Assembly (NCBI RefSeq): GCF_000020985.1
Contig: NC_011296.1
Span: forward strand, 982,001-1,046,000
DNA length: 64,000 bases
DNA from: Thermodesulfovibrio yellowstonii DSM 11347
GTDB lineage: Bacteria; Nitrospirota; Thermodesulfovibrionia; Thermodesulfovibrionales; Thermodesulfovibrionaceae
Direction: 5' to 3'
A program made the position numbers and the translations under genes. The notes under the pieces were generated by a model, which searched no databases, had not been told where the DNA came from, and saw nothing but the letters and a program-made list of their open reading frames with translations. Positions within the stretch are counted from its first letter, which is position 1. Every line of letters begins with the position of its first letter. Below are positions 43,018 to 57,415 of the stretch, one piece after another.

Positions 43018-43073
43018 ATTTTTCATGAATAAGAATTCTTCGGAGAGACACCGTAAATCTTCCAGATAAAAAA

Positions 43074-43164
43074 CGGAGAGGGAGGGATTTGAACCCTCGG
43101 TGGAGCTTTTAGACCCCACACGCGATTTCCAGTCGCGCCCGTTCGGCCACTCCGGCACCTCTCC
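43074..43164 (-). tRNA. tRNA-Ser (GGA anticodon)
   Basis: A 91-base tRNA with the long variable arm typical of serine. The acceptor stem GGAGAGG pairs with CCTCTCC, the discriminator is G, and the anticodon loop is CTGGAAA. The anticodon GGA is encoded at 43128-43130 on the minus strand. The T arm contains GGTTCAAAT. CCA is not encoded. It reads UCC and UCU codons. Confidence 0.95.
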
Positions 43165-43176
43165 ACAGATTTTTTT

Positions 43177-53223: not shown

Positions 53224-53499
53224 ATGAAGCTTCTTGATTTTCTGAGAGTTCTTGCAAGAGAGCTTATTGATAACGATTATAACGATGAAACATTAAAAGA
53301 TTTCTCTCTTCTGGACATTGATTTACATCAGATTAAAGAAGAACTGAATTTCATTGAAGGAAGCGAACTTCTTGACCGTGAAGAAATTGATATGATTAGA
53401 GCACTGCTTGTTTATTTACTCATGAGGGAAACAGAACTTCATGATGATGACATATATAGTTTCATTTTTAGTAAAGGGAAACAGATAGTATGGAATTGA
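53224..53499 (+). CDS. Small acidic protein between dprA and topA
   Basis: The 91-residue protein is unlike any family I can name with confidence. It is acidic, probably helical, and has no signal or membrane segment. The N-terminal MKLLDFLRVLARELIDNDYND and the middle LDIDLHQIKEELNFIEG suggest a small helical bundle. Proteobacteria carry the DUF494 gene smg at the same place between dprA and topA, so this could be a diverged equivalent, but I see no convincing sequence match. It begins directly after the dprA stop (AGGAGG is within the dprA tail) and overlaps topA by 10 bases. Confidence 0.6.
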   Translation: MKLLDFLRVLARELIDNDYNDETLKDFSLLDIDLHQIKEELNFIEGSELLDREEIDMIRALLVYLLMRETELHDDDIYSFIFSKGKQIVWN

Positions 53500-55823
53500 A
53501 AGGAAAAAATCTCATAATTGTTGAATCACCTGCAAAAGCAAAAACAATTAATAAAATCGTTGGGAAAGATTTTCAGGTGAAAGCATCTATTGGACATATA
53601 AAAGACCTCCCAGAAGACAGACTTGGTGTTGATATAGAAAAAGGATTTCAGCCTGACTATATCATAATTCCAGGTAAAGAAAAAATTGTAAAAGAACTCA
53701 AAGATTCAGCAAAGAATGCTCAAAAAATTTTTATTGCTACTGACCCTGATAGAGAAGGCGAAGCAATAGCCTATCATATTGCAGAAGAAATAAAAGTGCC
53801 AGAAAATAAAGTTTATAGAGCCATTTTTCATGAAATAACTCCAAATGCTGTGAAAGCAGCGATAGCAAATCCCTCAAAAATAGATATAAACAAAGTATAT
53901 TCACAGCAAGCAAGAAGAATTCTGGACAGACTTGTAGGTTATAATCTAAGCCCATTTCTATGGAAAAAGGTAAAAAAAGGACTTTCTGCTGGAAGAGTTC
54001 AGTCTGTTGCCTTAAGAATGGTTGTTGAGAGAGAAAAAGAGATTCTTATATTTCAGCCAGAAAATTACTGGACCATTGTTGGTAATTTTAAAAATGATGA
54101 AAATCTAAAAGAACTTCGTGCAAATCTTTATAAATATAAAGGTAAACTGATTATTGACCGTAAAGAAGAAAAAGCAAAATTTTTAATTACTGATGAAGAA
54201 ACTGCTCAAAAAATTATTGAAGAACTTAAAAAATTAAATTATATACTTACAAAAGTAGAAAAAAAGAAGAAAAAGAAAAATCCACCAGAACCTTTCAGAA
54301 CAGCAACACTGCAAGCACAGGCTTCTTCAACTTTGGGTTTTTCTCCTAAAAAAACCATGATGCTTGCACAACAGCTTTATGAAGGCATAGATATAGAAGG
54401 TACAAGGATCGGTCTTATCACGTACATGAGAACTGACTCAACAAGAGTTGCTGAAGAAGCAAAAAAATGGGCAAAAAATATCATAGAAAAAAATTTCGGC
54501 AAAGAGTTTGTTGGTAATCATAAAATCCACGAAACAAAAAAACAGAAAACTCCAATACAAGATGCTCACGAATGTATAAGACCTACTTATCCTGATAAAT
54601 CGCCTGAAAGCATTAAAAAATATCTTACAAAGGAGCAGTATAGTCTTTATAAGCTTATATGGGATAGGTTTCTGGCAAGCCAGATGTCGCCAGCTGAAGT
54701 AGAGCAAACTACATATATAATTGAAGATTTGGATAGTATTGCTCAATTTAGAGTAACTGGCTCTGTAATTACATTTCCAGGTTTTCTAATTATCTATAAA
54801 GACGAAGAATCCGAAGAAGATACTGTTTTACCTCAATTGAATGAAAAAACTTCACTCAAAATTTCAGAACTTGAAGCTCAAAAACATACAACAGAGCCAC
54901 CTCCAAGATATACAGAAGCAACTCTTGTTAAAGCACTTGAAGAAAAGGGAATCGGAAGACCATCCACTTACGCGACTATATTAAGCACTATTCAGGAAAG
55001 AGGATATGTAAAAAAAGTTAAACAAAAGCTTCAGCCCACCTACTTAGGCTTTGTTGTTAATGACCTTCTTGAAGAAAAATTTCCAGAACTGATGGATTAT
55101 AGCTTCACTGCAAAGATGGAAGAAGATCTTGATAAAATTTCATTAAATGAAGCAAAGTGGAATAAAGTAATAGAGGAATTTTATAAAGAATTTGAAAATG
55201 ACCTTGACCAAGCATCCAAAATATCAAAAGTAATAAAACCAAAGGAAATAAAAACCTCTTTTAAATGTGAAAAATGCGGCAAAGACATGGTTATAAGATG
55301 GAGTAAGGGAGTGCCATTTTTAGCATGTTCTGGATATCCTGAATGTAAAAATACCAGATCTTTAAATAATAATGAAAATGGATCTACAAAGAAAACCTTA
55401 GATAAAAAGTGTCCTCAATGCGGAGCTCAACTTGTAGTTAGAAATGGTAAAAGAGGAGAATTTATCGCATGTTCAAACTATCCTAAATGTAAATTCACCC
55501 AATCAATAACTGCACAAGTAAAATGTCCCCAATGTGGAGGTGATATTTTAAAAAAACAAACTAAAAAAGGTAGAACTTTCTGGGCATGTGCAAATTATCC
55601 AAAATGTAAATTTACACTTTCAAATGAACCAGTTCCTGCAGAATGTCCTAAATGTAAGTCTTCATATATGTTAAAAAAGAAAGATAGAAATGGAACTGAA
55701 TTTTTAATTTGCCATAATAAAGCATGTAAAGGTAAAATAGAAATAAAAGAACATTCAACTGGGACCGACCCTGCGCAACAGAAGGATGCAAACCCCGCCA
55801 GGTCCGGAAGGAAGCAACGGTAA
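53490..55823 (+). CDS. topA: DNA topoisomerase I
   Basis: A 777-residue type IA topoisomerase that relaxes negative supercoils. The TOPRIM motifs are IVESPAKAKTI near residue 10 and DPDREGEAIAYH near 87. The active-site Tyr lies in GLITYMRTDSTR near 313. Four C-terminal zinc-ribbon repeats follow from about residue 592 (starting at CEKCG, CPQCG, CPQCG and CPKCK). The last 20 residues are unusual: they are encoded by the 5' half of the SRP RNA gene at 55761-55823. The frame has no earlier stop. The gene overlaps the small upstream gene. Confidence 0.95.
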   Translation: MELKGKNLIIVESPAKAKTINKIVGKDFQVKASIGHIKDLPEDRLGVDIEKGFQPDYIIIPGKEKIVKELKDSAKNAQKIFIATDPDREGEAIAYHIAEEIKVPENKVYRAIFHEITPNAVKAAIANPSKIDINKVYSQQARRILDRLVGYNLSPFLWKKVKKGLSAGRVQSVALRMVVEREKEILIFQPENYWTIVGNFKNDENLKELRANLYKYKGKLIIDRKEEKAKFLITDEETAQKIIEELKKLNYILTKVEKKKKKKNPPEPFRTATLQAQASSTLGFSPKKTMMLAQQLYEGIDIEGTRIGLITYMRTDSTRVAEEAKKWAKNIIEKNFGKEFVGNHKIHETKKQKTPIQDAHECIRPTYPDKSPESIKKYLTKEQYSLYKLIWDRFLASQMSPAEVEQTTYIIEDLDSIAQFRVTGSVITFPGFLIIYKDEESEEDTVLPQLNEKTSLKISELEAQKHTTEPPPRYTEATLVKALEEKGIGRPSTYATILSTIQERGYVKKVKQKLQPTYLGFVVNDLLEEKFPELMDYSFTAKMEEDLDKISLNEAKWNKVIEEFYKEFENDLDQASKISKVIKPKEIKTSFKCEKCGKDMVIRWSKGVPFLACSGYPECKNTRSLNNNENGSTKKTLDKKCPQCGAQLVVRNGKRGEFIACSNYPKCKFTQSITAQVKCPQCGGDILKKQTKKGRTFWACANYPKCKFTLSNEPVPAECPKCKSSYMLKKKDRNGTEFLICHNKACKGKIEIKEHSTGTDPAQQKDANPARSGRKQR
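55709..55738 (+). promoter_or_regulatory. Candidate SRP RNA promoter within topA
   Basis: TTGCCA at 55709-55714 and TAAAAT at 55733-55738 are 18 bases apart, inside the coding region of topA. Transcription from it would begin near 55745 and give a leader of about 16 bases to be removed, probably by RNase P, as is known for E. coli 4.5S RNA. Confidence 0.45.
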
Positions 55824-55858
55824 GCATTTAATTCTGTGTGCCGCAGTAAGTCGGTCCC
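55761..55858 (+). ncRNA. ffs: Signal recognition particle RNA, 4.5S type
   Basis: The 98-base segment holds the universally conserved SRP domain IV, CCAGGTCCGGAAGGAAGCA, at 55798-55816, with the GGAA tetraloop and the asymmetric loop that bind Ffh. The ends GGGACCGAC (55761-55769) and GTCGGTCCC (55850-55858) pair perfectly. The RNA pairs with Ffh to target membrane proteins. The 5' 63 bases are also the last codons of topA. dnaX follows 18 bases later, the same order (scr, dnaX, yaaK, recR) seen in Bacillus subtilis. Confidence 0.95.
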
Positions 55859-55876
55859 TTTATTAAAGGAAACAAT

Positions 55877-57415
55877 ATGGAATATCTTGGACTTGCAAGA
55901 AAATATAGACCACAAAAATTTTCAGACCTTACAGGACAAGATGTTGTTATAAAAATTCTTCAAAACTCATTGCAAACTGGTAAAATTTCTCATGCCTATG
56001 TTTTTTCAGGACCAAAAGGTGTTGGTAAAACATCAACAGCAAGAATTCTTGCAAAAGCTTTAAACTGCATAGACTCCCAAAATAAGCCATGTGATAAATG
56101 TCCTTCATGTGTTGCAATAAAAGAAGGTAGAGCAATGAGTGTTATAGAAATAGATGCCGCATCCCATACTTCTGTAGAAAACATAAGAGATTTAAGAGAA
56201 AATATTCGTTATGCTTCTGCGGAAGGATTTTATAAAGTTTATATAATTGATGAAGCTCATATGCTCAGCCAATCAGCTTTTAATGCCTTTCTTAAAACCC
56301 TTGAAGAGCCTCCTCCACATGTAGTATTTGTTTTAGCAACAACTGAACCAAGAAAAATTCCCCTTACTGTGTTAAGTCGTTGTCAACATTTACAATTTAA
56401 AAGAATTCCGATTAATTTAATAAAACAAAGACTTCAATTTATCTGCAATCAGGAAAATATAAATGCTACAGAAGAAGCACTTTATACTATAGCTTCAAAT
56501 TCTGAAGGAAGTATGAGAGATGCATTGACAATGCTTGATCAAGTTACATCATTTACAGAAAATGTAACACAGGATAATGTAAATTTATTAATTGGTGGCA
56601 CAGATGTGAATGTGCTTTATGAACTTACAGAATGTTTAATTGATGGTAATAGAGAAAAAATTATTCTAAAAGTAGAAGAACTTAATAATTTTGGAACAGA
56701 TTTCAAACGACTTGTAGGTGACCTAATCAACTTTATAAGAAATACTCTTATTAGTAAAATTACAAAAAGTTTTAAACTTTACATAAGCGAATCAGAGGCA
56801 TCTTTGATAGAAAAGTTGAATAAAAAAACATCTGAGGAGCATTTAGTTGTTCTTTTAAAAGAATTGATTAATTCAGAATTTGCAATCAGGAGTTCATTTT
56901 TTCCCAGAGTTATTTTTGAAATAACTCTACTCAAACTCAGTTTTCTTGCTCATTTTAAAAATATAGATGATATTATAGAGGAAGCGAAAAAAAAATCACC
57001 ATTACAGCCTCCTTCTCTCCCTTTAAATAATAATGATGATATATCTTTATCTCAAAATTGGTTTAAATTTCTTGAAAAACTTGAAGCTCAAAATCATTTA
57101 CTTGCTATGAAAATCAAACATGCTAAAGTTAACTTTGCAGACAAAGAAATCCAACTTATTTATAATGGAGGAGCGTCATTTTATGCTGAATCAATAAAGG
57201 AAAATTTATCAGAAATTCAAAACATATTGAAAGAATTTATTTCTGATGTTAAGATAACTATACATTCTTATGAGGATATGAGCTCAAAGGATTCAAAACA
57301 GACAGAAAATTTAAAACAGGAGGCAATTAACCATCCAATTGTAAAAAAAACATTACAACTTTTTGAAGGAAGAATTTTCAATATAATACCTAAAAAAGGA
57401 GGCAATAATGTCTAA
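55877..57415 (+). CDS. dnaX: DNA polymerase III subunits gamma and tau
   Basis: The 512-residue clamp loader ATPase has GPKGVGKTSTARILAKAL as Walker A near residue 45. Its zinc site is built from Cys64, Cys73, Cys76 and Cys79 in the PCDKCPSC region, and IIDEAHMLSQSAFNAFLKTLEEPP is the Walker B to sensor part. Domain III ends near 365. A run of nine A residues (56987-56995) encodes Lys371-Lys373. One base added or lost there puts a stop about 12 codons later in both alternative frames, giving a product of about 382-384 residues that resembles gamma, while the full frame gives tau. The gene overlaps ybaB by eight bases. Confidence 0.95.
   Translation: MEYLGLARKYRPQKFSDLTGQDVVIKILQNSLQTGKISHAYVFSGPKGVGKTSTARILAKALNCIDSQNKPCDKCPSCVAIKEGRAMSVIEIDAASHTSVENIRDLRENIRYASAEGFYKVYIIDEAHMLSQSAFNAFLKTLEEPPPHVVFVLATTEPRKIPLTVLSRCQHLQFKRIPINLIKQRLQFICNQENINATEEALYTIASNSEGSMRDALTMLDQVTSFTENVTQDNVNLLIGGTDVNVLYELTECLIDGNREKIILKVEELNNFGTDFKRLVGDLINFIRNTLISKITKSFKLYISESEASLIEKLNKKTSEEHLVVLLKELINSEFAIRSSFFPRVIFEITLLKLSFLAHFKNIDDIIEEAKKKSPLQPPSLPLNNNDDISLSQNWFKFLEKLEAQNHLLAMKIKHAKVNFADKEIQLIYNGGASFYAESIKENLSEIQNILKEFISDVKITIHSYEDMSSKDSKQTENLKQEAINHPIVKKTLQLFEGRIFNIIPKKGGNNV

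Follow-up and report, generated by a model that had tools for sequence, protein, structure and literature searches.

A class of bacterial 3'-end RNAs is transcribed from promoters embedded in an upstream open reading frame, as is the case for DapZ in dapB, MicL in cutC, and MicX (reviewed in PMC9438474). A precedent of a different kind concerns the SRP RNA of Thermoproteus, whose gene is described in the abstract of the corresponding report as rearranged, the RNA being circularised and thus reaching its mature form by a new route (PMC4731332); the same abstract makes no mention of an overlap with a protein gene. An SRP RNA whose gene begins within the end of a protein-coding gene was not encountered in searches of the open-access literature.

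Such an overlap is present in Thermodesulfovibrio yellowstonii DSM 11347, in the 64,000-nucleotide stretch of DNA that was analysed (positions 982,001 to 1,046,000 of NC_011296.1, hereafter the window), where the following features meet.

53490..55823, plus strand: topA, encoding DNA topoisomerase I, an open reading frame of 777 residues with its TAA inside the SRP RNA
55762..55860, plus strand: small bacterial SRP RNA gene, recognised by Rfam RF00169, by its fold and by covariation across the genus
55762..55823, plus strand: the overlap, in which the 5' 62 bases of the SRP RNA are also the last topA codons and the stop

The arrangement resembles that of DapZ, MicL and MicX in that a noncoding RNA has a promoter, here a putative one, inside the upstream coding sequence (PMC9438474). 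However, those three are regulatory RNAs of Gammaproteobacteria while this one is the essential housekeeping SRP RNA, and, unlike in their case, over half of the mature RNA doubles as coding sequence, stop codon included. Since pairing with target mRNAs is not expected of an SRP RNA, the likeness is confined to biogenesis. With RNAs of the RF00169/4.5S type it shares sequence, fold, the conserved Ffh-binding core and the dnaX neighbourhood, but it departs from the usual ones in having a shorter outer closing stem, in having lost the upstream tRNA-Ser and in sharing its 5' half with a protein gene. As in Thermoproteus, judging from the abstract, a rearrangement disturbed the gene and a new biogenesis route, which is here a proposed one, followed, although the Thermoproteus RNA is archaeal and was circularised to restore function (PMC4731332).

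Both partners in the overlap look like ordinary members of their families. TopA matches TIGR01051 at 790 bits in a profile search and contains Toprim (PF01751), Topoisom_bac (PF01131) and Zn_ribbon_Top1 (PF01396) domains in a Pfam search; with Toprim and topoisomerase domains followed by C-terminal C4 zinc ribbons, it is a normal TopA. The RNA is matched over its full length by the RF00169 covariance model (80 bits, twice the gathering score of 40) and has a folding energy of -45.7 kcal/mol (z -4.3). It is a canonical small bacterial SRP RNA, predicted to bind Ffh and to act in targeting, and the genome encodes ffh (TIGR00959, 620 bits). A second copy that might free the overlapped one was sought in the whole genome of 2,003,803 bases and there is none, the SRP RNA gene being single. 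Immediately upstream, a 91-residue open reading frame (53224-53499), which overlaps the topA start by 10 bases, was labelled smg from its position and has no Pfam match at 0.001.

An earlier note, made from the window alone, had claimed that the topA frame runs through 63 bases of the SRP RNA and that TopA therefore ends in about 20 residues read from an RNA gene. This is borne out: the sense overlap measures 62 bases by the Rfam match, or 63 if the RNA begins at 55761, the topA stop (TAA, 55821-55823) lies inside the RNA, and according to the reading frame the final 19-20 residues of TopA, (G)TDPAQQKDANPARSGRKQR, come from SRP RNA bases.

A survey of genomes within the phylum revealed that the overlap is common to the genus; a scan of named genomes yielded one Thermodesulfovibrio locus and five distant TopA genes. 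In all 14 Thermodesulfovibrio genomes with an SRP RNA hit, topA has an intact frame upstream of the RNA, runs into it in one common phase and ends at SRP position 62 (two further genomes, 56% and 63% complete, gave no SRP hit and were left out). The comparison of topA stop positions between species that had been suggested as a check thus returns one and the same stop, and a local sequencing error as the source of the open frame is ruled out because the 14 genomes all agree in frame and stop. In the stretch that leads from the last zinc finger to the RNA, insertions and deletions occur only in multiples of three (minus 6 in L005 and minus 9 in L010).

The length of the open run within the RNA might be taken as a sign that the two genes have adapted to each other, but this was rejected, as SRP RNAs from outside the genus are open in that frame anyway: in 27 of 29 distinct ones the frame corresponding to that of topA stays open to a TAA at position 62. 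Because this frame is generic, any gene entering an SRP RNA in the phase of topA nearly always gains about 20 residues and a stop. The surprise thus lies with the junction and with how well it is conserved rather than with how far the frame runs on. Chance open reading frames reaching SRP RNAs elsewhere were also considered: 13 sense frames of at least 60 residues terminate within an SRP RNA from outside the genus or at its end, but most of them span the tRNA-Ser or the spacer, and judgement by eye identified no gene among them. As a side observation, spurious-looking open reading frames at four of the loci (L023, L111, L112 and L132) end in tails of the SVRSGRKQR or NPVRSGRKQR type because the SRP frame stays open until its TAA, and are a source of false gene calls.

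The neighbourhoods of the two genes in relatives suggest how they came together, and here two more features of the window matter.

55877..57415, plus strand: dnaX, ancestral downstream neighbour of the SRP RNA (a dnaX-like start follows the RNA in 62 of 63 non-genus loci)
43073..43165, minus strand: tRNA-Ser(GGA), found by ARAGORN, standing alone and displaced from the SRP RNA, which it adjoins in most relatives

An argG-dprA-topA block is present in all seven loci examined in relatives of the same order, and TopA of 30 relatives has its own stop shortly past the last finger, with tails that vary freely. A separate block has the order SRP-dnaX-ybaB in 20 of 20 loci of relatives, mostly with recR next; across the 63 non-genus loci, a dnaX-like start follows the SRP RNA in all but one, and most have upstream of the RNA a tRNA-Ser, nearly always with a GGA anticodon where this was read. 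In the window, the argG-dprA-topA block is joined directly to an SRP-dnaX-ybaB-recR block and the tRNA-Ser(GGA) lies about 12 kb from the SRP RNA. The RNA itself has been shortened at the junction: its closing helix starts a median of about 24 nt further out in relatives, while in the genus it starts at position -1 in 6 of 14 members (median -5.5), the others having scattered longer-range pairs. The overlap thus looks like the scar of an old genome rearrangement, the simplest reading of the gene orders being one event that broke the DNA at the 5' boundary of the SRP RNA. In an ancestral Thermodesulfovibrio, it would have placed argG-dprA-(smg)-topA against the 5' edge of SRP-dnaX-ybaB-recR, with the result that topA lost its stop codon and the SRP RNA lost both the outer half of its stem and the tRNA-Ser(GGA) usually found in front of it. 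Translation of topA would then have entered the SRP RNA and terminated at the UAA common to most SRP RNAs, thereby adding a disordered basic tail to TopA.

Whether anything besides the RNA keeps the frame open can be judged from the stretch that precedes it.

55740..55761, plus strand: TopA linker from the last finger to the RNA, which would also hold the transcription start (probably near 55745) and the 5' leader of the SRP precursor

For its seven codons, the tree gives 13 first-position, 5 second-position and 16 third-position changes (P 0.013 for a second-position count this low). The chance that all tips lack a stop in the linker, simulated neutrally along the third-position tree, was 0.02-0.09 at the full to half third-position rate and 0.20-0.30 at slower rates. 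The junction might be a neutral scar, in which the missing early stop is due to chance or to promoter and RNA constraints that leave little room. This has some appeal, as the simulated chance of a stop-free linker climbs to 0.09-0.30 when the linker is given between half and one fifth of the third-position rate, and as SRP RNAs in general share the open run and its stop, but it is rather doubtful, because the asymmetry between codon positions and the in-frame indels point to a translated and constrained sequence. Together with the lack of in-frame stops, these favour, if not overwhelmingly, a linker that is translated and mildly constrained. In keeping with the earlier note, the topA frame before the RNA stays open; it also looks protein-coding, and as far as the SRP RNA it is apparently under selection.

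Inside the overlap it is the RNA that leads. Five of its base pairs have changed on both sides across the genus, a level of compensatory change reached by 1 of 500 shuffles (slid structures give 0-2), which shows the hairpin to covary. Four of the five pair changes alter TopA (Asp to Glu, Ala to Thr, Lys to Arg and Ala to Val) and the fifth is silent (Gln), so that the fold is kept while the residues follow and the RNA constrains the protein. No sign of the protein constraining the RNA was seen in the genus comparison, since the open frame and its stop are generic to SRP RNAs. Of the proposition that the two genes constrain each other, the half that has the RNA constraining TopA therefore stands and the converse found no support. 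This bears on the idea that the RNA-encoded tail has been put to use, for example if its basic SGRKQR contacts nucleic acid or RNA polymerase, and that selection on the protein keeps the frame. The 14 genomes without an in-frame stop, the indels in threes and the protein-like codon pattern of the linker would all fit. Nevertheless, a useful tail is unlikely, because the tail is predicted to be disordered (pLDDT <50 for residues 175-198 of the modelled fragment), its residues inside the RNA change with base pairing and the corresponding tails of relatives are under no visible restraint.

The earlier note had reasoned that an RNA so placed needs its own promoter inside topA and had put forward a candidate, TTGCCA-18-TAAAAT at 55709-55738.

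55709..55714, plus strand: putative -35 box of the SRP RNA, TTGCCA, in codons of the last zinc finger (TTGC in 14 of 14 genomes)
55733..55738, plus strand: putative -10 box, TAAAAT, or TACAAT in three species (TA[A/C]AAT in 14 of 14)

The single match is not significant in AT-rich DNA (two promoter-like matches of such strength were found against 1.8 expected by chance in this stretch) and the case for a promoter therefore rests on conservation, in which the candidate has fared well. The pattern TTGCNN-18-TA[A/C]AAT (TTGC-N20-TA[A/C]AAT) is found in all 14 genomes, always with a spacing of 18 nt. The Cys codon in the -35 box is TGC in every one of them against 48 of 216 (22%) elsewhere in topA, a comparison that ignores the relatedness of the species. 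On a tree of the 12 ungapped genus genomes, the four third codon positions within the boxes are unchanged, while 6.9% of topA third positions are so stable. In three species, the Lys codon of the -10 box has become a Thr codon, which gives TACAAT and keeps the promoter pattern. There is good evidence, from this comparison of sequences, that selection acts on the DNA at the boxes, and a putative sigma70-like promoter in the last finger of TopA that serves the SRP RNA would be a natural reason for it; a conserved promoter-type sequence inside the upstream coding sequence is also what characterizes the ORF-embedded-promoter class of 3'-end RNAs. A promoter motif shared by SRP RNAs of the whole order was sought as well, and TA[A/C]AAT precedes the RNA in 10 of 63 loci where 3.5 would be expected, a signal too weak to use.

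Alternatively, the SRP RNA could have no promoter of its own and be released by RNase III, or by an activity of the RNase P type, from a long argG-dprA-smg-topA-SRP-dnaX transcript, as may also hold for many tRNA-linked SRP RNAs of relatives. In many relatives, the SRP RNA lies just downstream of a tRNA-Ser(GGA) on the same strand, making co-transcription possible, and its long stem is a possible RNase III substrate. However, translation of the long transcript would open up the 5' half of the RNA, and the hexamers and their 18-nt spacing have been kept against codon drift in 14 of 14 genomes. They have even survived the loss of part of the zinc fingers in L010 (from G007, an incomplete genome), whose TopA is missing some two fingers together with most of the final finger's cysteines but whose topA frame, boxes and spacing are retained. 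Excision as the sole source of the RNA is thus quite improbable.

The reading that we prefer, and hold with good confidence, combines an ancestral fusion of the two blocks, topA read into the SRP RNA and a separate SRP transcript from the finger-embedded promoter. Most likely, the SRP RNA would be made as its own transcript from the sigma70-type promoter, starting near 55745 and folding untranslated, with a leader of about 16 nt that is trimmed away. The length of the leader differs by 6 and 9 nt between genus members, as expected of one that is discarded. On transcripts that read through from topA, ribosomes would pass along the RNA's 5' half and stop at the UAA, and these transcripts would serve both topA and dnaX. 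The 3' end of the RNA would be set by its closing stem and a T run.

55849..55866, plus strand: 3' closing strand of the SRP RNA with a short T run, a possible terminator

In all 14 genomes, GTCGGTCC(C) or a close variant precedes this short T run. Next to it (55854-55880), most genus members would allow pairing between the CCCTTT that lies 3' in the SRP RNA and the AAGG ribosome-binding sequence of dnaX; this may reflect a small hairpin or simply follow from the two motifs being what they are.

In E. coli, the 5' leader of the 4.5S RNA precursor is removed by RNase P. A search of the T. yellowstonii genome for RNase P RNA of type A alone found none, and a homologue of the protein-only RNase P HARP (TIGR03875) is encoded at G000:C1:309261-309803. 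HARP has been reported from Thermodesulfovibrionales (PMC12153264). If RNase P trims the SRP leader here, HARP would have to do so.

A more speculative extension is that the overlap acts as a switch, in which, on transcripts begun upstream at topA, the ribosomes that complete the protein melt the RNA's 5' half, block its formation and termination and let transcription reach dnaX, while transcripts started at the promoter fold and end. Although this is very unlikely, it would, if true, tie translation of the topoisomerase to DnaX supply and SRP RNA yield.

This locus is a genus-wide case in which a housekeeping RNA and an essential protein are encoded by the same bases in the same orientation, and in which what appear to be the parts of a repair are visible, namely a stop of the kind that SRP RNAs generally carry, a promoter accommodated by the codons of a zinc finger and an RNA stem cut short. 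It also offers a natural test of whether the reading of an SRP RNA by ribosomes is tolerated. Annotators should take the last 20 residues of this TopA as genuinely part of its frame and as having their origin in an RNA.
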